This document shows, in pieces, positions 1,969 through 48,187 of a stretch of 54,705 bases of DNA (position 1 is its first letter; each line of letters begins with the position of its first letter). Under the pieces are notes generated by a model that saw nothing but the letters and a program-made list of their open reading frames with translations, was not told where the DNA came from and ran no database searches. The translations under genes and the position numbers were made by a program. This DNA comes from Saprospiraceae bacterium (lineage in GTDB: Bacteria > Bacteroidota > Bacteroidia > Chitinophagales > Saprospiraceae). The stretch is from positions 1 through 54,705 of the forward strand of contig JAIPBL010000039.1 in NCBI GenBank assembly GCA_021739645.1. Reading direction: 5' to 3'.

Positions 1969-2223
1969 ATGCCAGCTACTGCAACCGCAACTTCTTCAAC
2001 CAATTTTGAAAATCGGAAACTTCGGCTGATAAGCCGTATTGCCCAAATGGACGATGAGGCAGTTTTGAGCTTAATCGAAGACCTTGTTGAAGCGGATTCT
2101 GAAGCTGTTTTGACAAAGGAAGAAACTGCCATCGTCGAGCAACGGTTGGTTGGTTTTAGGGCGAAGCCCAATGAATTCGTGACACTTGAACAAATGGCTG
2201 GCAAAATCCAGAACAGGCAATGA
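1969..2223 (+). CDS. Antitoxin-like small protein of a type II toxin-antitoxin pair
   Basis: 84 residues, acidic and predicted helical (for example LIEDLVEADSEAVLTKEE), with no signal peptide. It sits directly before a RelE/ParE-type toxin gene and overlaps it by four bases (ATGA), the usual antitoxin-first arrangement. Known antitoxins of this kind bind the cognate toxin and repress their own promoter; a good promoter lies immediately upstream. I do not recognise a named DNA-binding fold, so the antitoxin call rests mainly on context, size and composition. Confidence 0.75.
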   Translation: MPATATATSSTNFENRKLRLISRIAQMDDEAVLSLIEDLVEADSEAVLTKEETAIVEQRLVGFRAKPNEFVTLEQMAGKIQNRQ

Positions 2224-2522
2224 GCTACTCCGTGATTTTGATTCCACTTGCAGAGGCGGATATTTTGGAAGCATGGGATTGGTACAAAAATGAATCGCCG
2301 GGACTTGAGCAAAAATTCTGGGACGCCATTTACAAATCCCTTTTACAAATAGCAAAGCATCCTTCCCGTTTCACTTTGGCAAAAGCAGATATTCGAGTGG
2401 CTTTCGTCAAGCGTTTTCCCTACAAGATTATTTTCTACACTAACGAGGCCATGAAACGGGTGGAGGTGGTAGCTGTTTTGCACAAAAAGCGGCATCCGGG
2501 TGTTTGGCAACGAAGGGTTTAG
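2220..2522 (+). CDS. RelE/ParE family toxin
   Basis: 100 residues with the RelE/ParE superfamily pattern: an N-terminal strand (SYSVILIPLAEADILEAWDWY), a two-helix region with F.....L...P.R, then the strand pair around RVAFVKRFPYKIIFYTN and the basic end VVAVLHKKRHPGVWQRR. Family members either cleave mRNA on the ribosome (RelE) or poison gyrase (ParE); which applies cannot be told from sequence alone. The start overlaps the antitoxin stop, giving translational coupling. The reading frame is intact, so the module may be active. Confidence 0.88.
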   Translation: MSYSVILIPLAEADILEAWDWYKNESPGLEQKFWDAIYKSLLQIAKHPSRFTLAKADIRVAFVKRFPYKIIFYTNEAMKRVEVVAVLHKKRHPGVWQRRV

Positions 2523-2545
2523 TCAACGGATGCAAATCTGGCTTT

Positions 2546-2613
2546 ATGCGAATTAGGTGTTGAAGCAGAATTCTCCGAGGTCATTTCGGCAACTTCCAAC
2601 TCCTAATTCGCAT
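2546..2613. other. Imperfect hairpin after the toxin gene
   Basis: A perfect 12-bp stem (2546-2557 with 2602-2613, core GCGAATTAGG/CCTAATTCGC) extends inward with mismatches. It lies 24 bases after the toxin stop and may end or stabilise the toxin-antitoxin transcript, though no clear T-run follows. Confidence 0.5.
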
Positions 2614-2710
2614 GCTTTACTATTTTTGCATCAGCCTGCTAAAATAGTACAACTATTTTCACAAAAACTCAAAATCCTGCCTTTTTACCTTCTAAAACCC
2701 GTCATTCAAA

Positions 2711-2917
2711 TCAAACCAATCCATCGCCAGCTGCACCCATCGCCAGCCTCCACCAAGGCAGAAACCTCACGCTCGTGCCATCGAGTTTTTCTACGGCATC
2801 GAGTGACAGATTCACCACCCACGCCTCAGCCGGGCGATAGGTATCAATAAAATTCCTGAACGAACGGGTGAGCATCGGCTTCACCAAAGCACTACACTTC
2901 ACATTTAACCCGATATT
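2711..2917 (-). pseudogene. C-terminal remnant of a DUF4143-type AAA ATPase
   Basis: The minus strand encodes about 68 residues, from after an in-frame stop near 2918 to a stop at 2711. The segment has the look of the C-terminal end of DUF4143-family ATPases: SFRNFIDTYRPAEAWVVNLS followed by DGTSVRFLPWWRL. The ATPase core and any credible start codon are missing, and the upstream DNA is AT-rich and non-coding, so this is a decayed fragment. The rest of 2523-3143 holds no gene I can support, only the hairpin at 2546 and the terminator at 3041. A larger predicted-ATPase gene of a related class occurs at 9367. Confidence 0.55.
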
Positions 2918-3040
2918 TTATGAAGTCAAGGTTAGAAATTATCGGAAAAAAAATTATTTTGGGGTTCAAAATTTTGGCTGGAAGGTAAATACGGGAGGAT
3001 GGTGACACCTTTTGAAAAAGTGTTACCGCTTTGCCAACAA

Positions 3041-3078
3041 AAAAAAGAGCGGGCAACCACAGGTCGCCCGCTCTTTTT
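3041..3078 (-). terminator. Bidirectional intrinsic terminator
   Basis: Stem GAGCGGGC (3047-3054) with GCCCGCTC (3066-3073), flanked by an A-run on the left and a T-run on the right. It can stop minus-strand transcripts from the gene ending at 3144 and plus-strand transcripts from the left. Confidence 0.85.
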
Positions 3079-3113
3079 AATTAACCCTAGTCGTATTAGC
3101 AGTGCCTTGACTG

Positions 3114-3143
3114 CACACTGCCAACTGTCGAACTGCCAACTGC
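3114..3143. repeat. AACTGCC-word repeat
   Basis: Repeated ACTGCCAACTG words immediately beside the stop codon of the minus-strand gene at 3144. Same family as the repeats at 18951 and 39379, in complementary orientation to the one at 1837. Confidence 0.6.
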
Positions 3144-4877
3144 TTATCGTATCACCTGAAACTTCTTCGACCTAAAGCCCTCCGGTGTATTGACGGACAT
3201 GAAATAAGTGCCAGTTGCCAGTTTGCTCACATCAAATGAGTAACGGCCCTTCTGCACATGGTCCAAAGTCCGGCTGCTCACGAGGCGGCCTGTGAAATCA
3301 AGGATGTGCACTTCCACTTCGGTAGCGGGGTTGTCCAGTGCAAGCTCCAAGTTGATGTTGTTTGTAGTTGGGTTCGGCGACACCGCAATTTTATGGTCAT
3401 CTAGTGCCGTAGTGGTGCCAGTAGCGAAGCCGTCCAAGTGAAGGCGAACAATGCCTTGGTAGGCACTTCCCCAACCATCGGTATGCAGGCTGTCTGTGAA
3501 AATCATTGTGCCTACTTCACCTGCCAAGCGCTCATTGCCACCGAAGGCGTACTTGGGCGGGATGCCCGTACCAGCCTCAGCGCCATTGTACTGTACCATG
3601 ATGAGGTACATTTTGTTGGCAGCAAGATTCACAGGGCTTGGGAATTCTACGGTGATGAACTCAAAGCCTTGGTCGTCTTGAGAAATGATATATTCCGTCG
3701 TAGTCAATGGAATAAGTGGCCCACCGTTTTCATTCAACCCGTTGTAGGAGGTTAATCCAGCAGGGTAGGGAATGCTTCCATTGCCATCAGGGTCAGCGTT
3801 GTAAAGCACAATGTCAAAGCGGTCGGCATCAGGGTCACCAGAGTACAGCTCATCAGGATTGCTAATCATAAACGACATGTGGGTAGCCACGACCGGGGTA
3901 GGCCCAGTGCGGTACACGTTGCCCATGTCGTATTGGAAAAAGTAAAGATTAACAAAGTTCGCACTGTCTGGCTCAATGGTGCCATTGGTGTTTGGTACGA
4001 TGACGCCATTGTCTATTGCAAACGTATAATCTGTGATTACGAAATCCTGTGTTATTTCATCGGGAGTCAATGAATTGGTGAACTTCACAGAATAAGTGCC
4101 AATCGCAGTAGGCGTGTAGGAATCATCAAACTTTACGTTGTTAACCGAAACTGGCGCCACATTAATCAGCGTTTGGCTGAGGGTGGTAGTTGCTCCACCC
4201 GGGGCGGTGATTTCTGCGTTGATGGTCACAGAAGGAAGCGTATTGACGGCGTCAATGTTCAAGAAGGTGACACCAATATCCGACAGCGGTTTCACCGCAG
4301 TCAATGGTGTGTGGTAGCTGTAAGCCGTACGAGGACCTCCGAATGCCCTGACGGTGAAGGTAGCTGTAACAGGTTCGCCAGCGTCGAGTTTGGAGAGGAT
4401 GATGTCGCCGTCATCACGGGTAATGAAAATAGAGGGGATATGTGTTTCCGCAGCATATAATGCTCCAGACATGCCTACAAGGCCACCTCCATCTGCATTG
4501 TAGGTGTGGTTGACGATAATGACCCCAACAGCGCCTGCCTGCTGGGCACGGTAAGCTTTTAAGGTGAAGTTGCAATCTCCACGGCGAATGAGCGCTATTT
4601 TACCGGTTAGGTCATTGAAAGCCATGGAATCGCAAAGCAGAGAATCCGATTGGCTACCTAAGCTGTCCTGGCTATATGCCCAAATCAGTGGTGCAGAAAC
4701 CGTCTGAGCCAGTGTATCGCCCCAGTCTGCACCAGAAGAATATTCAAAAACCTTGTCAAAGCCTCCGGTTGATTGAACTGAAAATTCAACGGGAATAGGT
4801 GAAGTGTTGGGTATTTGCGCCATCAACTGCGACGCCATTGCGCCCAAAAACACGAGTAGTGTAAATGCTTTTTTCAT
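3144..4877 (-). CDS. Secreted PA-domain protein with T9SS sorting domain
   Basis: 577 residues. Signal peptide 1-20 (MKKAFTLLVFLGAMASQLMAQ). A protease-associated (PA) domain follows at about 85-165, recognisable from GKIALIRRGDCNFTLKAYRAQQAGAVGVIIVN. The middle contains beta-rich adhesin-like sequence (ITAPGGATTTLSQTL) and a long unassigned region. The last 80 residues are a type A T9SS C-terminal sorting domain (VSPNPTTNNINLEL ... GTYFMSV ... KKFQVIR). PA domains usually accompany secreted peptidases, but no peptidase motif is visible here, so it may be a binding module. It shares architecture with the gene at 7160. The start is set by the signal peptide. Confidence 0.88.
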   Translation of the reverse strand: MKKAFTLLVFLGAMASQLMAQIPNTSPIPVEFSVQSTGGFDKVFEYSSGADWGDTLAQTVSAPLIWAYSQDSLGSQSDSLLCDSMAFNDLTGKIALIRRGDCNFTLKAYRAQQAGAVGVIIVNHTYNADGGGLVGMSGALYAAETHIPSIFITRDDGDIILSKLDAGEPVTATFTVRAFGGPRTAYSYHTPLTAVKPLSDIGVTFLNIDAVNTLPSVTINAEITAPGGATTTLSQTLINVAPVSVNNVKFDDSYTPTAIGTYSVKFTNSLTPDEITQDFVITDYTFAIDNGVIVPNTNGTIEPDSANFVNLYFFQYDMGNVYRTGPTPVVATHMSFMISNPDELYSGDPDADRFDIVLYNADPDGNGSIPYPAGLTSYNGLNENGGPLIPLTTTEYIISQDDQGFEFITVEFPSPVNLAANKMYLIMVQYNGAEAGTGIPPKYAFGGNERLAGEVGTMIFTDSLHTDGWGSAYQGIVRLHLDGFATGTTTALDDHKIAVSPNPTTNNINLELALDNPATEVEVHILDFTGRLVSSRTLDHVQKGRYSFDVSKLATGTYFMSVNTPEGFRSKKFQVIR

Positions 4878-5010: not shown

Positions 5011-5078
5011 TCTCAAAACATTGGCAAATGGCCACTTGCAGTGGTTGCGGAAGGCCAGTTTCTCCAACAGCCTATTTT

Positions 5079-6980
5079 TTAACGAACTACCAATTTGCTT
5101 GACGCTATCCGGTCACCTGCTTGCAGGGTTACGATGTACATGCCGTCAGCGAAGGTTGAAGTATTTAGGTCGAAACCGTGCTTGCCTTGGTTCTGAACCC
5201 CCAACTTGGCGGTCTTCACCACTTGACCAAGCGCATTTGCAACGTTGATCGTTACGGGTTCAGCCGCCGCCAATTCATACGTCAGAATGGACATGGAAGA
5301 ACTTGGGTTTGGCGAAATAGCGAAGTCAAAAACATCAGGGCTAACCGTAGTCGTGTTGCTGATGATTCCCAAATCAGCCACATCCAAGCCGATATGGTTG
5401 ATGTAGTTGGTGCTTGCTGCATCCATATCGCCACGAACAGACAGACCCGGCTCAAAATCCTGCTGATAGATGATGTCGGCACGGTAGTCAACGTGCCGGG
5501 CAATGGCTGGGAACATCGTTTCGTAAACACCGCTGAAATCCGTAAATTCCTCAACGTAATCTTCAGAAGTCAAATCCAGCGGGTCACTCCAAGTTGAGCC
5601 TCCATCTTCGGAGAAGATGACATACACGTGGCGGTTGTGCTGCTGATTCGGCGTTGCATCTGGGTTGATATAGTTTTCTGTCAAACCAGAATAGGCCACG
5701 TAAATGCGGCCATCTGCATCAATACCTGCACTCGGGTGTGAGGTCAAAGAGGCATAATAAAGCGCAATGTCGGAGATGGCAGCGATGTCCGCCGTACCAT
5801 TGCCATTGGCATCAATGATGCCTTCCACTGCGTAAACCGAAGCATCTTCATCCATGTCCTCGTTCCAGTAGTGAAGCCCCATCGTGGCTGGGTAGTAGCT
5901 GGAGTTGGCAGCGGCGTCGTCCATGATGTACATTTCACCGTACCAGAGGTGAACCTTGCCATCGTTGTCAACGAGCACATCGCCCGCATTGTCAGAGGAT
6001 TGGATGGCCAATGAATCTGGGGCATTCGGGTCGGAAGGCAACTGGTCGTAGGTGTAACCGGAGTCCAGCACATAACCGTCAATCGGGAAATCCTTCACCG
6101 TCCAGGTTGTCCAAGTGTCGCCATTGTCTGATGATTTGGCAATTTTCACATCGCCATAATCTCCAATAATCCCCACTGCCACGGTTTCGCCAGAGGCATC
6201 GATGGCATAGGAGTCGGCATCCATCCGTGAGTAAAAGTCGCTGTTAACATCTGGCAGTTTGATGTCCTGTTTGTCCCAAGTTGTACCGCCGTCAGTGGAG
6301 CGGAAATACAGGATATGCCCATCGCAGCCATCATACACTGCGCCGCCATTGCCAGTAGGCAACGTAATGGCTATCACGTGAAGCGTGTTGCCATCAGCGC
6401 CTCCAACTTCCATCCGTGGCCAAAGCAAGCCTGGAGGAGCTGCTGTTGGGACATCTGAATATTGCCAAGTACCGCCAACATTCTTGCTGACCCGCAACTT
6501 AGCATCGGAGGTGTGGGCAACGGTTACGACAGTGCCATCGGCAAGCGTAACAACGTTTGGCCAGCCAGTCCGCACATCTTCTATACGGGCCGTAGCGTAT
6601 GGCCCCCATGATTGGCTGGATGGCGTGAAAACATTGTAGCCAGTACCCCGGTCAGGATACCCGCCAAGTGCGTCTGCGCCGAATGTGTAAGTACCGTACA
6701 AGGTGCCATCCGCCAATTTGGTAACCCTGTTTGGCGTGGAGCTGTTGCTTTGCAAGTCGTAAAGTGTCTCGCCGAGGGTGTTCTCCCCTAGGGAACGATC
6801 AAGCAGTGGCAAGTTTGGATTGGCGATAACCTGGCCAACAGGTTCCATGCCTGTCATGGCCACTTTGTTGCGAGGCATAGGCGCTTGCTTGAACCGCAAG
6901 TTGTGCGAGCGGAGGGGGGCTTGAGCTACGAGTTGGGACATGATTGCCCCAAGGAAAAATAGTGTAAGTAATTTTTTCAT
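5079..6980 (-). CDS. Secreted BNR/sialidase-like propeller protein with T9SS sorting domain
   Basis: 633 residues. Signal peptide 1-19 (MKKLLTLFFLGAIMSQLVAQ). At least three Asp-box (BNR) motifs are visible: STDGGTTWDKQ, SSDNGDTWTTW and SEDGGSTWSDP. They are the hallmark of sialidase-type six-bladed propellers. The end is a type A T9SS sorting domain (ISPNPSSSMSILTYEL ... GMYIVTLQAGDRIASSKLVVR). Asp-box proteins include sialidases and many non-enzymatic binding propellers; the catalytic Arg triad of true sialidases is not evident, so an enzyme function is not claimed. Transcribed toward the terminator at 4970. Confidence 0.87.
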   Translation of the reverse strand: MKKLLTLFFLGAIMSQLVAQAPLRSHNLRFKQAPMPRNKVAMTGMEPVGQVIANPNLPLLDRSLGENTLGETLYDLQSNSSTPNRVTKLADGTLYGTYTFGADALGGYPDRGTGYNVFTPSSQSWGPYATARIEDVRTGWPNVVTLADGTVVTVAHTSDAKLRVSKNVGGTWQYSDVPTAAPPGLLWPRMEVGGADGNTLHVIAITLPTGNGGAVYDGCDGHILYFRSTDGGTTWDKQDIKLPDVNSDFYSRMDADSYAIDASGETVAVGIIGDYGDVKIAKSSDNGDTWTTWTVKDFPIDGYVLDSGYTYDQLPSDPNAPDSLAIQSSDNAGDVLVDNDGKVHLWYGEMYIMDDAAANSSYYPATMGLHYWNEDMDEDASVYAVEGIIDANGNGTADIAAISDIALYYASLTSHPSAGIDADGRIYVAYSGLTENYINPDATPNQQHNRHVYVIFSEDGGSTWSDPLDLTSEDYVEEFTDFSGVYETMFPAIARHVDYRADIIYQQDFEPGLSVRGDMDAASTNYINHIGLDVADLGIISNTTTVSPDVFDFAISPNPSSSMSILTYELAAAEPVTINVANALGQVVKTAKLGVQNQGKHGFDLNTSTFADGMYIVTLQAGDRIASSKLVVR

Positions 6981-7070
6981 ACTGTTTCAATTTTGTTAGA
7001 AGAAAATATTTCTGTTGGCTTAAAAGTATAAAATCTTCTGCTATCCAAAATACATCTGTTGAATAAATTC

Positions 7071-7111
7071 AAAAAGCGCCACTCGAAAGCTTATTTCGAG
7101 TGGCGCTTTTT
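7071..7111 (-). terminator. Strong intrinsic terminator (18-bp stem)
   Basis: Perfect 18-bp stem, 7071-7088 with 7094-7111, and a 5-base loop. A5 and T5 at the stem ends make it bidirectional. It closes the gene ending at 7160 and shares its core (AAAAAGCGCCAC) with the terminator at 4970. Confidence 0.9.
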
Positions 7112-7159
7112 GCATTAAAAACGGAGATACACAGCCCTCACGGAGGGTTGTGTCAGTAT

Positions 7160-8941
7160 TTAGTGCTGAACGGTAAAACGCTCAGCCTTGATGCCTTGGT
7201 CAGTAGTAACGACGATGAAATACTGGCCAGCAGCGAACTGAGACACGTTAAAGCTAGCTTTGTCGTAGTCAGTGTTCAATGTTTTGCTGCTATTGTAAAC
7301 CATGCGGCCAGCATTATCACGGATGGTGTAGGAGATGCCGCCAGTAGCGGATTTCAGCTTGGACTCTACTACCAACTGGTTGTTGGCAGGGTTCGGGCTA
7401 AGGGTCACGGCTACATTTGATGGAGCAACTTCGATGCTAGGCGAATCGTATTGGTTGATGATCAATGCTGAAGCGATAGCACCTCCAACATCCGTGAACA
7501 AGCCACCGCCTTCAATGTCTGGAACGGAGTTGTCCCAAGCAGTGATGACGATGTATGGAAGGTCGAAGTCCCGCTGGATTAGCCCATTGTCCATGGCTAC
7601 TGTTTGGTCATAACCATCGTCAAAACCAAAGAAAACAATGGCCGAGCCCTCGTAACGTACGCCCAAAAAGTATCTTTTGTTGTCTCCAGGAACTACATAG
7701 CCACCTGGTTCCAGTTCAAGGTAGTCATAGATATCGGCCTTTACCCAAGCGCTGGTGGCCGAGGTGTCGGCAAACGTTACTGGGGCATAACCAACTATGG
7801 TCAACTCATCGTTTGTGATACCTTCATCAGAATTGAGGTCATCCCACTCATAAACATAGCCAGTGACAGAATTGGCTTCTAATCCACCGAGTGTGCCAGT
7901 CTGCGGGAAAATTTGGAATTGAATGCTGTCGAGCTTGTACCCAGCGCCTTCTGGCACTTCGAAACCAGCGAGGAACTCAACACTGCCACCTCCGCCAACG
8001 GTGCGGCCGATAGAAGATATTGGGCGGTTGTTGGTAAAATCCCAACGTCCCCTGCAGTAAACGTTACTGCTGAATACGAACTGAGAGGTAAACTCGTTGT
8101 CGCTTACTGCTTCCGGAGAATCGCCCTCTGAACTTGAAACCGAGTAGGTAATATCATATACACCAGCACCTTCTGTTGGAGTGTAGTCTGCCAGTTGAAT
8201 AAAGCCAGATGAATCTTTAGCTAATGATGCAAGGCTGTTAACCTCGTCATAAACTAGCGTAGCAGATCCGCCAGCAGGTGTATGTGTAATAACCCCTTCA
8301 GCTTGAATGCTTGTAGCACCATTCAAACCCTTGTTCAGGACGTTGACGCCAGGTGTAAATCCGACTCCCAATGCTTCCGCTTGGTTAACTGGCATGACAC
8401 CGTTCACCATGTTGCTCAATCGTTTAGCGGTGAGGGCCAAGTCGTTTTCAAACACCACATTGCCGATGGTCATGTTCACGGTCTCCGTCATCATGGTGGT
8501 GCGAATGGTCTGCCCTTCTTCGTAGGAAAGCATTACCGCAGGAATAGTGACAGCTGCACCATTCACACCTGCACCCATCGGGATAGTACCGAGGCCTGCA
8601 TTTGCTACACTGTTGAAAACAACCACTGCGATAGCACCAGCATTTTCAGCATTCAGGCATTTTAGGCCAAATTCGCATGTGCCGCGGTCAATCAGTGCAA
8701 TTTTACCAGCAAGTTCAGCGGCGTTCGTTGCTGCTTCGCAACCCTGCGTTGGGTTTGCACTGCCATCATTCACGAAAACTACGTCACCCGTCCAAGTTCC
8801 TGAAGTAAGGTCTGCGCCGAATGCAGCAGCATCAAAGGCTTTTGAGCCAGCAATGCTGGCTGGTGAATTCACTAGCACAACCTGCGCAGAGACAGTGAGC
8901 GCCAGAAAAAGCGTACAAATTAGTGTTGTAAAAATCCTCAT
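7160..8941 (-). CDS. Secreted PA-domain protein with T9SS sorting domain
   Basis: 593 residues. Signal peptide 1-19 (MRIFTTLICTLFLALTVSAQ). PA domain at about 80-160 (GKIALIDRGTCEFGLKCLNAENAGAIAVVVFN). The central region is beta-rich (about 200-500) with no recognised catalytic motif. Type A T9SS sorting domain at the end (LSPNPANNQLVVESKL ... GQYFIVVTTDQGIKAERFTVQH). It is clearly paralogous in layout to the gene at 3144: signal, PA domain, then a segment with L......GVxxxNxG and matching carbohydrate-binding-like stretches. Part of a run of three cargo genes on the minus strand. Confidence 0.87.
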   Translation of the reverse strand: MRIFTTLICTLFLALTVSAQVVLVNSPASIAGSKAFDAAAFGADLTSGTWTGDVVFVNDGSANPTQGCEAATNAAELAGKIALIDRGTCEFGLKCLNAENAGAIAVVVFNSVANAGLGTIPMGAGVNGAAVTIPAVMLSYEEGQTIRTTMMTETVNMTIGNVVFENDLALTAKRLSNMVNGVMPVNQAEALGVGFTPGVNVLNKGLNGATSIQAEGVITHTPAGGSATLVYDEVNSLASLAKDSSGFIQLADYTPTEGAGVYDITYSVSSSEGDSPEAVSDNEFTSQFVFSSNVYCRGRWDFTNNRPISSIGRTVGGGGSVEFLAGFEVPEGAGYKLDSIQFQIFPQTGTLGGLEANSVTGYVYEWDDLNSDEGITNDELTIVGYAPVTFADTSATSAWVKADIYDYLELEPGGYVVPGDNKRYFLGVRYEGSAIVFFGFDDGYDQTVAMDNGLIQRDFDLPYIVITAWDNSVPDIEGGGLFTDVGGAIASALIINQYDSPSIEVAPSNVAVTLSPNPANNQLVVESKLKSATGGISYTIRDNAGRMVYNSSKTLNTDYDKASFNVSQFAAGQYFIVVTTDQGIKAERFTVQH

Positions 8942-9366
8942 GTTAAATGTGTTTTGTTAAGTTGAATAACCCCCGGCCAAGGTTTTCGCAAAAACGCTTG
9001 ACGGGTATTTAGATAAAGGCTTAAGATTACAAGTTTTGGAAGGATTTGGGTGCCAAGCAAATCTGCTTTCAAGCAGTAAAGGTAACAAATCAGGGATTTG
9101 AAGGAAAAGCGATTTTAGTTAATTGGGTCATTTTGCAGTCAATATTGCAAAACCAAGGAAGTATTTTCGACTTGTCCAAATGGGCAGTTTTGATTTGTTG
9201 CAGTTTCGTGTTTTCAATCCTTTGCCTTTTTTACCGCTGCCTCCACCTCCTTTGTCGCTTTTTCCAGCTCCGCCACCTGTTGTTCCCGGTCGCTGTTGTT
9301 CCCCTTTTGCCTATTATGCACGAGGGCATGATAGGTTCCCATTTTGGAGGCTGGCAGCCCCTCAAT
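8942..9366. other. Intergenic region holding clpB tail copy A
   Basis: 425 bases between the PA-domain gene and the AAA ATPase. The left part (8942-9215) is the upstream region of the gene starting at 8941 and shows no gene. The right part holds the degenerate clpB 3'-end copy listed separately. Confidence 0.6.
9222..9297 (-). pseudogene. Degenerate copy A of the clpB 3' end
   Basis: Read on the minus strand, this stretch encodes [19 protein letters not shown], then AVKKAKD and a stop. The authentic ClpB end at 11350 reads [19 protein letters not shown], then [11 protein letters not shown] identity is obvious over about 75 bases. The frame stays open back to the TAA of the neighbouring ATPase gene (9367), and an internal ATG at about 9340 would give a 42-residue product. 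It shares CACCTGTTGTTCCCGGTCGC with copy B (10949), whereas the true clpB differs there, so copies A and B share a more recent history with each other. Confidence 0.8.
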
Positions 9367-10800
9367 TTATGGGACAAACAAGCAGTCCATGTCCAGTGAC
9401 AGGGCCAAAGAGCCGAGGGAATGGGCATTCGGCTTGACGCCAAAGGTGCTGAGCATGACCCAGTTGACCAATTTTTTCGTGCCGGTGCTTTCCCTGAAAA
9501 CCCGCAGCTTTTCCCGCAGGGCATCGGAGTCTGCCTTGGTGAGGGTGAGGGCGGTGCTGTAAAATTTGATTTCAACGAGGTTGATGACCCGGTCGTTCCG
9601 GTCAATGAGCAGGTCAACCTGGGTGCCCGGTCCGTCGCTGCTGCCCGTTTTCACAAAAGTGGATACCGAAGAATAGATGCCCGAAATGCCAAGGGCCTTT
9701 TTGATTTGGGGTATGTGCTTCAGGCAGATATTTTCAAAAGCGTAGCCGCACCAGGTCTTGAATTCCTGTGTTTGGCTGAGCATGTTCCAGATGTCCTCCT
9801 CGTCATGGGGGTGCTGCTCGATGAACCGGAGGTAGAACAGCGAATACTCGTCGCTGAGGCGAAAGACTTTTTCTTTTTTCTTTTTGCCGAAGGGGAAATA
9901 CTCGGACACGAAGCCCGATTCTATGAGTTCTTGCAGCACTTTTGTCACCCTACCGCCGTCCGGGAAAGGGATAGTCCGGACTACCTCCCCACGCACCATG
10001 CCGTAGTGCTTGCCAGCCAAGGCACGGATGATGGAAAGGTGGTAATCGGAATGGCTGAAAAGAGCTGGGTAAAGGCTCAAAAACTCGTCTTTCAGCAGTC
10101 CACCCTCTGAAAAACAAATTTGGTTGATGTTCTGGGTGGCACTCATGTGCCCAGCGACCTCTTTGAGGTAGTGCGGGATGCCGCCCAGTGCCATGTAAAT
10201 CAAAAGGATATGGTAGCGGTCAAGCACAATGCCCCGCCCAGCGAGATATTCTTCGGTTTCTGCAAGGGAAAATGGTTTTAGCCGGATACGCTTGGTCACA
10301 CGGTTGTGGAGTCCTCCTTTGTTGCGCAGCACGTTTTGAATCATCCACGAAGCGGACGAGCCGCAGATGACCACCACGATGTCCCGGTTGACCGCCCAGC
10401 TGTTCCAAAAATAGCTCAACCCCCTCAAAAACCCGGACTTGTGCGAATCGAACCAAGGCAGTTCGTCCAAAAAAACGACCATTCGGCCCTCCTTCTTTTT
10501 GCGGTCGAGTGCTGCGCTGAGTTGGTGGAATGCATCGAGCCAATTGGCAGGCTTCAGCACCGCTGCCCCTTCAAAAAAGGTCTCATTGAGCCGTAGGCTG
10601 AAATTTTGCAACTGCTCCGAAAGTGGGGCTTTTTGCAAGCCGCTTGCCTCAAAATCAATTTGCCCGCCATAAACATGCTTGACCAAAAAGGTCTTTCCGA
10701 CCCGTCTTCGACCAATAATAGAAACCATTTCTACCTCTGGGGAAGCCAGTGCTTCCTCCAAAACCCTGATTTCTTCCTTCCTTCCAATGAATTTGCTCAT
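9367..10800 (-). CDS. Predicted AAA ATPase (ATPase_2 with C-terminal DUF234-like nuclease fold)
   Basis: 477 residues from the ATG at 10800 (MSKFIGRKEE); a longer start at 10842 is possible but would run through the repeated TTCGGAAT boxes, so I prefer the shorter one. The N-terminus has the family's FIGRKEEIRVLEEAL signature. Walker A is GRRRVGKT (30-37) and Walker B is VVFLDELPW (LDE at 111-113). A helical middle follows. The C-terminal region has D396 in VDLLID and E410-x-K412 in VEIKFY, the spacing of a PD-(D/E)xK-type core as proposed for DUF234. These ATPases are common, variably present accessory genes of unknown biological role. The gene lies between two degenerate copies of the clpB tail, suggesting it was inserted there. 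Confidence 0.85.
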   Translation of the reverse strand: MSKFIGRKEEIRVLEEALASPEVEMVSIIGRRRVGKTFLVKHVYGGQIDFEASGLQKAPLSEQLQNFSLRLNETFFEGAAVLKPANWLDAFHQLSAALDRKKKEGRMVVFLDELPWFDSHKSGFLRGLSYFWNSWAVNRDIVVVICGSSASWMIQNVLRNKGGLHNRVTKRIRLKPFSLAETEEYLAGRGIVLDRYHILLIYMALGGIPHYLKEVAGHMSATQNINQICFSEGGLLKDEFLSLYPALFSHSDYHLSIIRALAGKHYGMVRGEVVRTIPFPDGGRVTKVLQELIESGFVSEYFPFGKKKKEKVFRLSDEYSLFYLRFIEQHPHDEEDIWNMLSQTQEFKTWCGYAFENICLKHIPQIKKALGISGIYSSVSTFVKTGSSDGPGTQVDLLIDRNDRVINLVEIKFYSTALTLTKADSDALREKLRVFRESTGTKKLVNWVMLSTFGVKPNAHSLGSLALSLDMDCLFVP

Positions 10801-10815
10801 GCCCATTTTTTTGCC

Positions 10816-10903
10816 TTCGGAATATGGGCAAATGTAGTGCATTCCGAATGTAAAAAAAATTATCCGCTTCGGAATGTGTAAGAAACAACTAAGATTCCGA
10901 AGC
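10816..10903. promoter_or_regulatory. Four evenly spaced alternating TTCGGAAT boxes
   Basis: TTCGGAAT at 10816-10823, ATTCCGAA at 10841-10848, TTCGGAAT at 10868-10875 and ATTCCGAA at 10894-10901. The outer pair extends to a perfect 10-bp inverted repeat (GCTTCGGAAT 10866-10875, ATTCCGAAGC 10894-10903). Spacing between box starts is 25, 27 and 26 bases. The array covers the region just upstream of the ATPase start, where an operator or element end would sit. Confidence 0.7.
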
Positions 10904-10948
10904 CCAAAAAGGGCTGATGGGCCTTCAGTATAGATTTGGGTAGATAGG

Positions 10949-11013
10949 TGGCCTTTTCCAGTTCCGTCACCTGTTGTTCCCGGTCGCCGCTTTTTTTCGC
11001 CTTCGGTGAACTG
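10949..11013 (-). pseudogene. Degenerate copy B of the clpB 3' end
   Basis: Minus-strand translation gives [21 protein letters not shown], aligned to [21 protein letters not shown] of ClpB, then diverges. It covers the part of the ClpB tail upstream of, and overlapping with, the part in copy A. Copies A and B overlap by the stretch coding DREQQV-x-ELEKAT (about 40 bases), as if one duplicated tail had been split by insertion of the ATPase segment. Confidence 0.8.
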
Positions 11014-11062
11014 CTGATTTAGGGGATGACTGAATGGCTCGGTGGCTTTTTATGGAATTGGA

Positions 11063-11287
11063 TTAAAGGCCACCAAAACTGCTCATGTCACAACCTGCCT
11101 GAACGATTTTGATGGCCTCTTCCAGTTCTGTGTTGGTCGCCTTGCCTTTCTTGGGTTGTTTTGGCGTTCCGGTAGGCTGACTGGAGGCTCTATGCTTTTC
11201 TAACAAAAACCCAATGAAATCCATCACCTCTTTTTTGAGAGCATCTGGCAATTGTTGAAGCTGTGTGAAAATTATTTGGTCTGACAT
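11063..11287 (-). CDS. DUF2281-like small protein (orphan antitoxin-like)
   Basis: 74 residues from the ATG at 11287 (MSDQIIFTQLQQLPDALKKEVMDFIGFLLEK); a start at 11320 would add 11 residues. The pattern of a short strand, L..LP..L..EV.DFI.FL, then a charged linker is that of DUF2281 proteins, which often pair with a downstream PIN-domain toxin. Here the expected toxin position (below 11063) instead holds the clpB tail copy B, so the partner is absent. A perfect -7-like box TAAATTTG lies just upstream, near 11330 on the minus strand. The gene begins only 63 bases after the clpB stop. Confidence 0.65.
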   Translation of the reverse strand: MSDQIIFTQLQQLPDALKKEVMDFIGFLLEKHRASSQPTGTPKQPKKGKATNTELEEAIKIVQAGCDMSSFGGL

Positions 11288-11349
11288 GATTGATTGGTTT
11301 GATTGACCTTTTGTACCCATGCAAATTTATCAAAAAATACTTGGGTTTA

Positions 11350-14127
11350 TTAGTCCGATTTCACCTTTTTTACCGCTGCCTCCACCTCCTTTGTCGCTTT
11401 TTCCAGTTCCGCCACGTGCTGTTCCCGCTCTCCACTTTTTTTTGCTTTTGGTGAAACAGCAGCTTTGCCATTGGACTTTGGTGCAGCTCCCATCCATTCT
11501 GCCACCGATTTTGCGCCAGCCACTTTTGCTTTTCCGAACTTCAGTTCATCTCCATTTGCCTCCACATACACCGTATCGCCTTCCTCAAAAGTGCCGCCCA
11601 GCACGTGCTTCGATAGCTCGTCAATCAGCAGGTCTTGCAGCGCCCGCTTCATCGGTCGGGCACCAAATTGTGGGTCGTAGCCTGCGTCGCCGAGCACATC
11701 AATGGCGGCTTCCGTGAGCGCCAGTCCGAGGCCCTGACGCTGGAGCAGTTTCTCTGTTTTGCGCAGCAACAAGAACAACACCTGCCGAATTTCGGCCTTG
11801 CTCAACGGCGTGAAAACGATGACTTCGTCAATGCGGTTGAGGAATTCCGGGCGCAGCGTTTCCTTTAGCGTGGTCATCACCTCTTCTTTCGTCGTGGCAA
11901 TGATTTCTGCCCGGTGTTGCTCGCCGAGGGCGTCCAGGTCCTCAAAGTTTTCGAGGATTTTCTCGGATGCCATGTTGCTCGTCATGATGACGATGGCGTT
12001 TTTAAAACTGGCGGTGCGGCCTTTGTTGTCCGTCAGGCGGCCCTCGTCGAGCACTTGCAGCAAGATGTTGAAGGTGTCCGGGTGCGCCTTTTCTATCTCG
12101 TCGAGCAGCACGATGGAGTAGGGCCTGCGGCGCACGGCCTCGGTGAGTTGGCCGCCCTCGTCGTAGCCGATGTAGCCGGGAGGGGCGCCAACGAGGCGGC
12201 TCACGGTGTGCTTCTCCTGGTACTCGCTCATGTCAATGCGGACGATGGCGTGTTCGTCGTTGAACAGCACCTCGGCCAGCGCCTTGGCGAGTTCCGTCTT
12301 GCCCACGCCCGTCGGGCCGAGGAAGATGAACGAGCCGATGGGGCGGTTTTCGTCCTGGAGACCCGCCCGGCTGCGGCGGACGGCATCGCTCACGGCCTTC
12401 ACGGCTTGCTCCTGCCCGATGAGGCGCTGGTGCAGTTCGCCTTCGAGGTTGAGCAGTTTGTCCCGTTCGCTCTGCATCATCCGGCTTACGGGGATGCCCG
12501 TCCAACGGGCCACGATGTTTGCGATGTCGTCGGCGGTGACTTCATCGTTGGTGAAACGCTGGTCTTCCGGCAGTTTGGCGAGTTTGGTTTCGGCTTGTTT
12601 CAGCGCTTTTTGTTCGTTGGGGAGGTCGCCGTATCGGATTTTTGCCACGGCTTCGAGGTCGCCGCCACGTTCCAACTTGTCGGCTTGCTGCTCCAGCCCT
12701 TCTATTTTTTTCTTGATGGCCTGCATCGTGTCCACGATTTCTTTTTCGTTCTTCCAAGCGGCCCGCAGGCTGTCCCGTTTTTCCCGGGCATTGGCGATTA
12801 GCCCAGTGATGGCAGTCACTTTGGTGGTCGCATTCTCCCGTTTCAGCGCCTCTTTTTCGATTTCGAGTTGGCGCACTTTGCGGTCCCATTCGTCCACCTG
12901 CTCCGGCACGGAGTCGAGTTCGAGGCGGAGCTTTGCGGCAGCTTCGTCAATGAGGTCAATGGCCTTGTCGGGCAGTTGGCGGTCGGCCACGTAGCGGTGC
13001 GAAAGCTCGGCGGCGGCCACGAGCGCCTCGTCGCTGATGTCAATTTTATGGTAAACCTCGTACTTCTCCTGCACGCCCCGGAGGATGGAAATCGTATCCT
13101 CCACGCTCGGTTCTTCAATCAGCACTTTTTGAAAACGCCGCACGAGTGCCTGGTCTTTTTCAAAATGCTTTTGGTATTCGTCGCTTGTCGTTGCGCCGAT
13201 GGTGTGCAGCTCGCCACGGGCGAGGGCGGGCTTGAGGATGTTGGCGGCGTCCATGGCGCCGTTGCCGCCGCCAGCGCCCACGAGGGTGTGGATTTCGTCA
13301 ATGAACAGGATGATTTCGCCGTTGGAGTTCTGCACCTGCTTGATGACGGCCTTGAGGCGCTCCTCGAACTCGCCCTTGTATTTTGCGCCAGCGATGAGCG
13401 AGGAGATTTCGAGGGTGTAGATTTTTTTGCTCCGCAAATTGTCCGGCACGTCCTGTTTGATGATGCGCCAGGCGAGGCCCTCGACGATGGCCGTCTTTCC
13501 CACCCCAGCGTCGCCGACGAGGATGGGGTTGTTTTTTTTCCTTCGGGAAAGGATGTGTAGCACCCGCCGGATCTCGTCGTCCCGCCCCACGATGGGGTCG
13601 AGCTTGCCTTCTTCGGCCATGGCGTTCAGGTTCACGGCGAATTTGGTCAGTGCGTTGAACTGCTCGTCGCTGCTCTGGTCGGTCACTTTTTCGCCCTTGC
13701 GGAGTTCAATGATGGCCGCTCGGAGGTTGTCGTCGTCGGCACCGAGCATTTTGAGGAGCTTGCCCGCCTTGTCCTCGCCTTGCAGGATGCCCATCAGTAC
13801 CAATTCGATGCTGATGTACTCATCGCCAAAATCAGGGAGCATTTTTTTCGCCCTGGCCAGTGCTTTGTTTGCCTCTGGCGTTAGGAACTGCTTTTCGGTG
13901 CCGCTCACTTTTGGGGTAAGTTGGATGAGCGTTTCGAGCTGCCGCTTTAGTACGTTCATGTCGATGCCGCATTTTTCAAACAGAAAAGTGGCCACATGCT
14001 CGTCCGTTTCTAGGATTCCACGCAGCAGGTGGGCGGTGTCCACGTTCTGTTGGCTGTTGCTTGCAGCGATTTGCTGTGCTTTTAGGATGCAGTCCTGGGC
14101 TTTGATGGTGAAGTTGTCGTAGGTCAT
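11350..14127 (-). CDS. clpB: ATP-dependent chaperone ClpB (disaggregase)
   Basis: 925 residues. ClpB pulls polypeptides out of aggregates through its hexameric pore, working with DnaK in the cytoplasm. Domain order: Clp N-terminal repeat (1-145), first AAA domain with Walker A GDAGVGKT (205-212), the coiled-coil middle domain (about 400-530) that ClpC lacks, second AAA domain with GPTGVGKT (about 608), and the C-terminal small domain ([23 protein letters not shown]). The protein is about 65 residues longer than Escherichia coli ClpB (857): after the small domain there is a Lys/Ala/Glu-rich tail ([20 protein letters not shown]...). The DNA for this tail is the piece duplicated twice downstream. 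Long open frames on the opposite strand (11914-12801, 12868-13560) are GC-bias shadows. Confidence 0.97.

Positions 14128-45637: not shown

Positions 45638-48187
<2,550 letters not shown>

Follow-up and report, generated by a model that had tools for sequence, protein, structure and literature searches.

In a Saprospiraceae bacterium (assembly GCA_021739645.1, genome G000 below), the 3' end of the gene clpB has probably received small genes in two successive insertions, each with a long target duplication. The window, meaning the whole stretch of 54,705 nucleotides of contig JAIPBL010000039.1 that was analysed, holds two displaced copies of the clpB tail, A and B, around an AAA ATPase gene downstream of the intact clpB, and we put the probability of this reading at about 0.77. 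In the order of events that we favour, a cassette carrying a DUF2281 (VapB-like) gene would first have entered the last codons of clpB, with duplication of about 92 nt of the tail; the intact clpB would have kept one copy and received a new stop codon from the incoming DNA, and the other copy, joined to the old downstream DNA, would have been displaced. Later, a cassette carrying the ATPase would have entered this displaced, dispensable tail with a 40-nt duplication, leaving copies B and A. Rather than being specific to clpB, the process looks like a general one of insertion and target duplication that operates at many gene ends and by which small antitoxin/toxin, XisH-XisI, Uma2 and nuclease genes repeatedly enter gene ends in this lineage.

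Along the minus strand, clpB is followed by the DUF2281 gene, copy B, the AAA ATPase gene and copy A with its stop codon (Table 1). Copies A and B match overlapping parts of the clpB tail with 94% and 83% identity, and so lie on either side of the ATPase where the first-pass annotation, made from the sequence alone, had placed them. The overlap of about 40 bases that it reported is likewise present, as 40 nt common to both copies at 90% identity, and the ATPase and DUF2281 genes are real by their Pfam matches. Its further claim that the copies are more like each other than like clpB is weaker than was stated: of the 40 common positions, A and B agree at 36, B and clpB at 33 and A and clpB at 35, so that the claim is marginal for copy A. 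Together the copies cover about 92 nt and overlap by 40 nt, so two nested insertions account for them and no deletion is needed. The tail sequence occurs at only three sites in the 6.16-Mb genome (97-nt query around copy A, E <= 0.001), which rules out a dispersed or low-complexity repeat unrelated to clpB. The DUF2281 and ATPase genes were the only genes recognised in the window's inserts, with no integrase or transposase recognised there, and no inverted repeats were listed at the insert ends in the window.

The nearest relative examined, G013 (same genus, ClpB 96% identical, genome 78% complete), has an empty site. There, the clpB stop codon is followed directly by the DNA that lies behind copy A in the window: window positions 9291-8679 match G013 from -77 nt to +536 nt of the clpB stop with 90% identity over 614 nt, up to the end of the G013 contig. 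Copy A is therefore, by its position, the original clpB end, and the DNA that separates it from the intact clpB came in by insertion; this agrees with the earlier proposal that a surplus clpB end was afterwards interrupted by the ATPase, with duplication at the break. The intact gene ends in KVKSD-stop, that of G013 in KVKE-stop and copy A in KAKD-stop, which indicates that the first insertion fell just before the stop codon and that the incoming DNA gave clpB a new one. In the aligned tails, compared by eye, clpB and copy A have five states in common that are absent from G013, and this suggests a duplication more recent than the divergence from G013.

We see further use of the same gene end in other relatives. 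In G006, different cargo (a KilA-N domain piece) lies at the same clpB end and is accompanied by a separate 72-nt tail copy that ends at the stop codon. G008 holds a deleted remnant of the window's ATPase (88% identity to window 9654-9366) and, behind it, a tail copy that has decayed to 69% identity over 77 nt (E 4e-7). In G008, the homology to the ATPase starts about 36 nt later and ends about 72 nt earlier than the window's insert, which could reflect variable cassette ends, though decay in G008 could also explain it. A second clpB family member in G005 is followed by two tail copies, the first of which includes a terminator-like hairpin; they belong to an array that also holds a ParE-type toxin, XisH-XisI and what read as DUF433/DUF5615-like genes. 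The case that would have refuted the first-pass annotation, scattered tail copies in relatives without the ATPase, was looked for in four of them: neither the ATPase nor a tail copy is present in G013 (over 537 nt) or in G003, G011 and G012 (over 4.6-9.4 kb 3' of clpB), and in G008 both are present in damaged form. Repeated insertion at the clpB 3' end, as first suggested, is supported.

Table 1 Features at the clpB locus of the window, in minus-strand order.
Feature	Coordinates	Strand	Basis or remark
clpB, host gene, 925 aa	11350..14127	-	ends KVKSD-stop; G013 ends KVKE-stop
clpB 3'-end stretch duplicated by the first insertion, about 92 nt	11364..11455	-	inferred from the combined extents of copies A and B
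DUF2281 gene (VapB-like antitoxin), first-insertion cargo	11063..11320	-	Pfam PF10047 3e-9
Copy B, left-hand piece of the displaced tail of clpB, severed by the ATPase insertion	10948..11010	-	83% over 63 nt to clpB 11393-11455
Four alternating TTCGGAAT / ATTCCGAA boxes, 5' of the ATPase, candidate operator	10816..10901	-	read by eye
ATPase_2-type AAA ATPase, second-insertion cargo	9367..10806	-	Pfam PF01637 8.5e-16
Target duplication of the second (ATPase) insertion, 40 nt	9254..9293	-	equals 10948-10987; 90% identity
Copy A, original clpB 3' end, own stop (KAKD-stop)	9214..9293	-	94% over 67 nt (9225-9291) to clpB 11364-11430; G013 alignment
DNA originally just 3' of clpB, upstream of a PA-domain gene	8942..9213	-	same in G013

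Similar arrangements recur well beyond clpB. We scored loci of the cassette families, a subset of all matches in 36 related genomes with the window's own locus excluded for the ATPase and DUF2281, for direct repeats that flank the gene at up to 1.5 kb on either side and score at least 60 bits. Such straddling repeats flank XisH at 4 of 30 loci, the ATPase at 2 of 29, DUF2281 at 7 of 29 and Uma2 at 2 of 30, compared to 1 of 160 control open reading frames (ORFs), the one being the G006 clpB insert itself. The pooled count for the four families is 15/118 raw (Fisher p 1.5e-5) and 11/118 after curation (p 4.6e-4), which removed L085, L167, L178 and L201 by judgement (repeat family, duplicated antitoxin genes, low complexity, ABC paralogues). 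DUF433 loci gave 7/30, and all cassette loci 22/148, both uncurated. At a laxer threshold, 7 of 20 XisH loci from named genomes, a set reaching beyond Bacteroidota, have straddling repeats (L104, L109, L110, L115, L116, L118 and L120; the L104 repeat is that of the G005 mutS locus). In the cyanobacterium SU3 (L115, 1582-4912), XisH-XisI and genes that read as PIN/antitoxin lie between copies of one 120-172-nt intergenic repeat. In an Acidobacteria locus (L116), a 71-nt gene-end copy that ends at the stop codon lies behind two ORFs read as DUF433 and DUF5615-like, and the following gene, which reads as pyrC from its first residues, has its 5' end copied upstream of XisH-XisI (3929-3983 and 5038-5093). 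The pyrC copy would represent a target duplication at a gene start; 5' ends appear rarer than 3' ends among the cases examined. Duplications at 5' ends and between genes do occur, and C27 on G000 may be another 5'-end case.

The uvrA end is occupied in 5 of the 11 same-genus genomes examined (G000, G001, G005, G006 and G008), by differing sets of small genes, all with tail copies; related HNH genes occur in G000 and G005, and a related pair of a 118-aa protein plus PIN in G000 and G001. No uvrA tail copy was found in G002, G003, G007, G009, G010 or G012, where the downstream DNA is just 791 nt in G010 and 140 nt in G012 and one 26-nt match in G002 was disregarded. A single DUF2281-PIN cassette lies at the transporter end of G006, and G000 has an extra cassette between the host and a DUF2281-PIN cassette; the tail copy of the extra cassette is 94% identical as against 86%, so this copy is probably the younger. 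Reuse of the clpB, uvrA and transporter ends in several genomes, and tandem arrays in which every cassette is followed by a tail copy, are also what homologous recombination would give, if a circle or transformed fragment consisting of a cassette and a host tail recombined with the same gene end in another cell and the repeats then let arrays grow and shrink. Such a process cannot, however, make the first tail copy at a new gene, and in the tree of uvrA tails the G000 copies cluster with G000's own uvrA end and not with the copy at the G001 PIN cassette (short sequences, weakly supported branches). We therefore regard spread by homologous recombination as a somewhat unlikely source of these loci.

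The range of hosts and cargo bears on the first-pass suggestion of an integrating element aimed specifically at clpB. The hosts include mutS, uvrA, an SNF2 helicase, a DEAD-box helicase, a LytTR regulator, an AcrB-type transporter, a PfkB kinase, a cytochrome-like gene (by reading) and a lipoyl-synthase-like gene, where the insertion is just behind the stop codon; the search for other gene ends with tail copies that it had called for thus found them at uvrA, mutS, the transporter and more. The cargo comprises XisH-XisI, Uma2, DUF2281-PIN, DUF433-DUF5615, PIN_3, HNH, Fic, zeta, ParE, KilA-N and one SPFH protein, and some cargo ORFs have no Pfam match. An integrase-type element that used the clpB 3' end as its attachment site and brought a replacement end, like islands at tRNA genes, would explain why the duplicated block stops at the gene end, as if merely restoring the gene, and why the original end is displaced downstream. 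Against it, no integrase was recognised in the window's inserts or among the cargo proteins scanned, though a recombinase acting in trans would revive the idea. XisH-XisI cassettes follow the tails of three unrelated genes (cytochrome-like, mutS and the second clpB), and there is therefore no fixed attachment site. In addition, the duplication length varies from 51 to 267 nt and a 5'-end duplication exists. Taken together, this makes an integrase-type element very unlikely, and the claim of a clpB-specific one is not upheld.

A scan of 1,315,211 of the 6,157,607 bases of G000 listed 34 repeat pairs, of which 9 place a copy at the 3' end of a gene, with 7 host genes involved. These hosts are on C2, C10, C15, C25, C41 (two hosts) and C28, the last being the window; C17 was dropped, as its repeat has 23 copies. 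The C41, C53 and C61 stretches had been picked for XisH or Uma2 matches, C41 for XisH, and both C41 hosts come from there, so only C2, C10, C15 and C25 are strictly unbiased. Seen on its own, copy A would resemble a simple tandem duplication at the end of clpB into which unrelated genes later fell by chance, but this is hardly credible, since gene-end copies with a gap below 250 nt (no room for cargo) were found once in the 1.3 Mb, in a repeat family, versus 7 host ends with cargo, the cargo is of few recurrent kinds with control ORFs so rarely straddled, and the clpB genes of relatives show no cargo-free tandem tail copies.

Two loci of G000 are recorded here for their structure. L308 (G000:C77:6000-17000) has, at 6742-9957, a 714-codon ORF and then four tail copies with small ORFs between them, the first interval holding a ParE-type toxin. 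In L313 (G000:C132), three copies of a 44-47-nt element lie at 1982-3755 behind the threonyl-tRNA synthetase gene (thrS); the element begins about 30 nt after the stop codon and surrounds DUF5615-type and zeta-toxin genes. No known RNA element was found at Rfam gathering scores in the intergenic repeats of L326, L072, L207 and L313.

The curated junctions cluster near stop codons. In 17 of 21 curated 3'-end events, the duplicated block ends no more than 14 nt from the stop codon (median 0). A null model that leaves the junction free from -14 to the duplication length gives a mean of 5.4 such events and reached 17 in 0 of 100,000 draws, a test conditional on the source of the list, which was junctions from -45 to +80 of a stop codon plus earlier-seen cases. 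The duplication has a median length of 93 nt in these events, to which uvrA, the second clpB and the transporter each give two. Left out were L303, L200, L085, further copies at C77 and mutS, the dispersed repeat C17, five terminator-type cases (C19, lipoyl-synthase/Uma2 at L207, thrS/L313, nadA/L326 and L204) and the ATPase insertion into the dead clpB tail. The remaining events end near terminator-like hairpins, or slightly before or beyond the stop codon. Cargo is co-oriented with its host in 18 of 20 cases (p 4e-4; orientation by eye), and in about half of 20 cases the cassette ends 0-17 nt after its own last stop codon (by eye).

Gene ends in G000 are also rich in G on the coding strand. 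The skew (G-C)/(G+C) over the last 80 nt has a median of 0.18, against a mean of -0.01 for gene bodies (672 ORFs), and in the seven scan hosts the median end skew is 0.50 (Mann-Whitney p 1.9e-4), with unskewed bodies. The mean end skew in a stretch of E. coli is 0.05 (27 ORFs). No end skew is seen in G002 and G004 (p 7e-6 and 2e-5 versus G000), which have no XisH and one Uma2 match apiece. By position, 658 ORFs in the 1.3 Mb of G000 have G at 0.32 and C at 0.18 in the region 40-20 nt before the stop codon, against 0.26 and 0.26 upstream. A link between G-skewed gene ends and insertion targets is suggestive.

One way to connect these features is that transcription steers cassette entry. An R-loop would form at the gene end as the ribosome departs at the stop codon and the G-rich, C-poor non-template strand of the tail remains single-stranded; a break at the edge of the bubble, which would be the stop codon or the terminator end, might be made by the cassettes' own nucleases, and its repair would copy in the cassette and part of the tail. 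The co-orientation, the stop-codon junctions, the hairpin class of junctions and the G-skew of the target tails fit such a course, which we nonetheless consider doubtful. For insertion with target duplication in general, the favoured molecular step, set beside the observed anatomy, empty site, recurrence at other genes, near-stop junctions and co-orientation, would be the repair of a break at the gene end, through template switching or microhomology-primed copying. The broken end would copy a cassette and re-enter the target upstream of the break, so that the stretch between is duplicated. Template switching at a break near a gene end would fit both the variable repeats and the variable cassette ends.

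Several points weigh against the two-insertion reading and its extension to other genes. At the threshold used, 126 of the 148 cassette-family loci have no straddling repeat. The ATPase remnant and decayed tail copy in G008 mean that the ATPase may predate the split, with an insert since lost from the site in G013 or G003; recombination between the two tails would cleanly delete a cassette. Selection for an intact host gene accounts for the survival of 3'-end insertions and not for their closeness to the stop codon; target duplication combined with such selection does not predict near-stop junctions, so that some targeting or constraint is missing from the account. The two clpB insertions are ordered by their nesting, and no insertion event has been seen in real time. 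As for the skew, the gene ends of G003 are skewed (16 ORFs), although XisH, Uma2 and DUF2281 have no match there and DUF433 has one, and G002, with unskewed ends (21 ORFs) and few of these families, still holds the 267-nt repeat of L164, which is among the clearest events.

The cargo proteins of the window deserve a closer description. Against the NCBIfam model NF050009 (TA_VapB), the DUF2281 gene scores 38 bits (1.6e-9), below the cut-off of 60, and no toxin partner was recognised beside it among the window's ORFs by eye; it thus lacks both the score over the cut-off and the neighbouring VapC toxin of a VapB-type antitoxin. The ATPase has Walker motifs and, in an alignment of 10 homologues, an invariant C-terminal D-x13-E-x-K, which we take to be a PD-(D/E)XK nuclease-like motif. 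Uma2 is described, in the accessible part of one study, as a predicted PD-(D/E)XK endonuclease (PMC2701414). Such nucleases may cause the breaks. The ATPase family is expanded in some genomes, with 18 matches in G016, 10 in G010 and 9 in G037. The TTCGGAAT / ATTCCGAA boxes upstream of the ATPase, a possible operator, are also present 5' of the ATPase remnant in G008. Elsewhere in the window, at 45689-46771, another Clp-type ATPase has 49% identity to ClpB over 360 residues.

Restriction-modification genes are reportedly inserted with a long target duplication, as is said to have been described by Nobusato et al. in 2000 and Furuta et al. in 2010. The available parts of one paper describe such genes as unlinked to a known mobile element and flanked by long, variable direct target repeats on the order of 100 bp (PMC3874152), and insertion with long target duplication is also treated in the available parts of two others (PMC1643837, PMC3031569). 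Here too we see a relative with an empty site (the clpB end of G013) and long, variable flanking repeats (about 92 and 40 nt in the window; 51-267 nt in the 21 events), and no transposase or terminal inverted repeats in the window. The cargo in those portions of the literature is restriction-modification only, whereas here it comprises antitoxin/toxin, XisH-XisI, Uma2, Fic and AAA-ATPase genes; near-stop junctions, arrays and an apparent preference for G-skewed ends are not mentioned there. Genomic islands at tRNA 3' ends duplicate the host 3' end and leave the gene intact, as at the loci described here, but in our case no integrase was found, there is no fixed site, the cargo is very small and the hosts are many protein-coding genes. 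Integron arrays consist of units of 1-2 ORFs arranged head-to-tail and parted by a repeated element. Small head-to-tail units with a repeat between them are seen here as well, but the repeat is the tail of the host gene and varies by site (attC and IntI were not searched for).

In the accessible text of PMC2701414, DUF433-PIN pairs and Uma2 are discussed as toxin-antitoxin-like, and Uma2 is said to form cassettes of paralogous genes; the terms 'direct repeats' and 'mechanism of mobility' do not appear in that text, whereas the insertion anatomy is visible here. In the available portions of the open-licence literature, no description of tail-copy anatomy was found for toxin-antitoxin genes. The toxin-antitoxin and nuclease cargo, the arrays, the stop-codon junctions, the co-orientation and, suggestively, the G-skewed target ends are apparently new. 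The footprints left by these insertions bear on the movement of chromosomal toxin-antitoxin, XisH-XisI and Uma2 genes without transposons, and they can be counted: the relative age of an insertion can be read from the divergence of its tail copy, and sites with and without an insert exist within one genus. Stop-codon junctions and G-skewed targets make transcription-linked insertion directly testable and, for annotators, an orphan tail 3' of a gene can mark an insertion.

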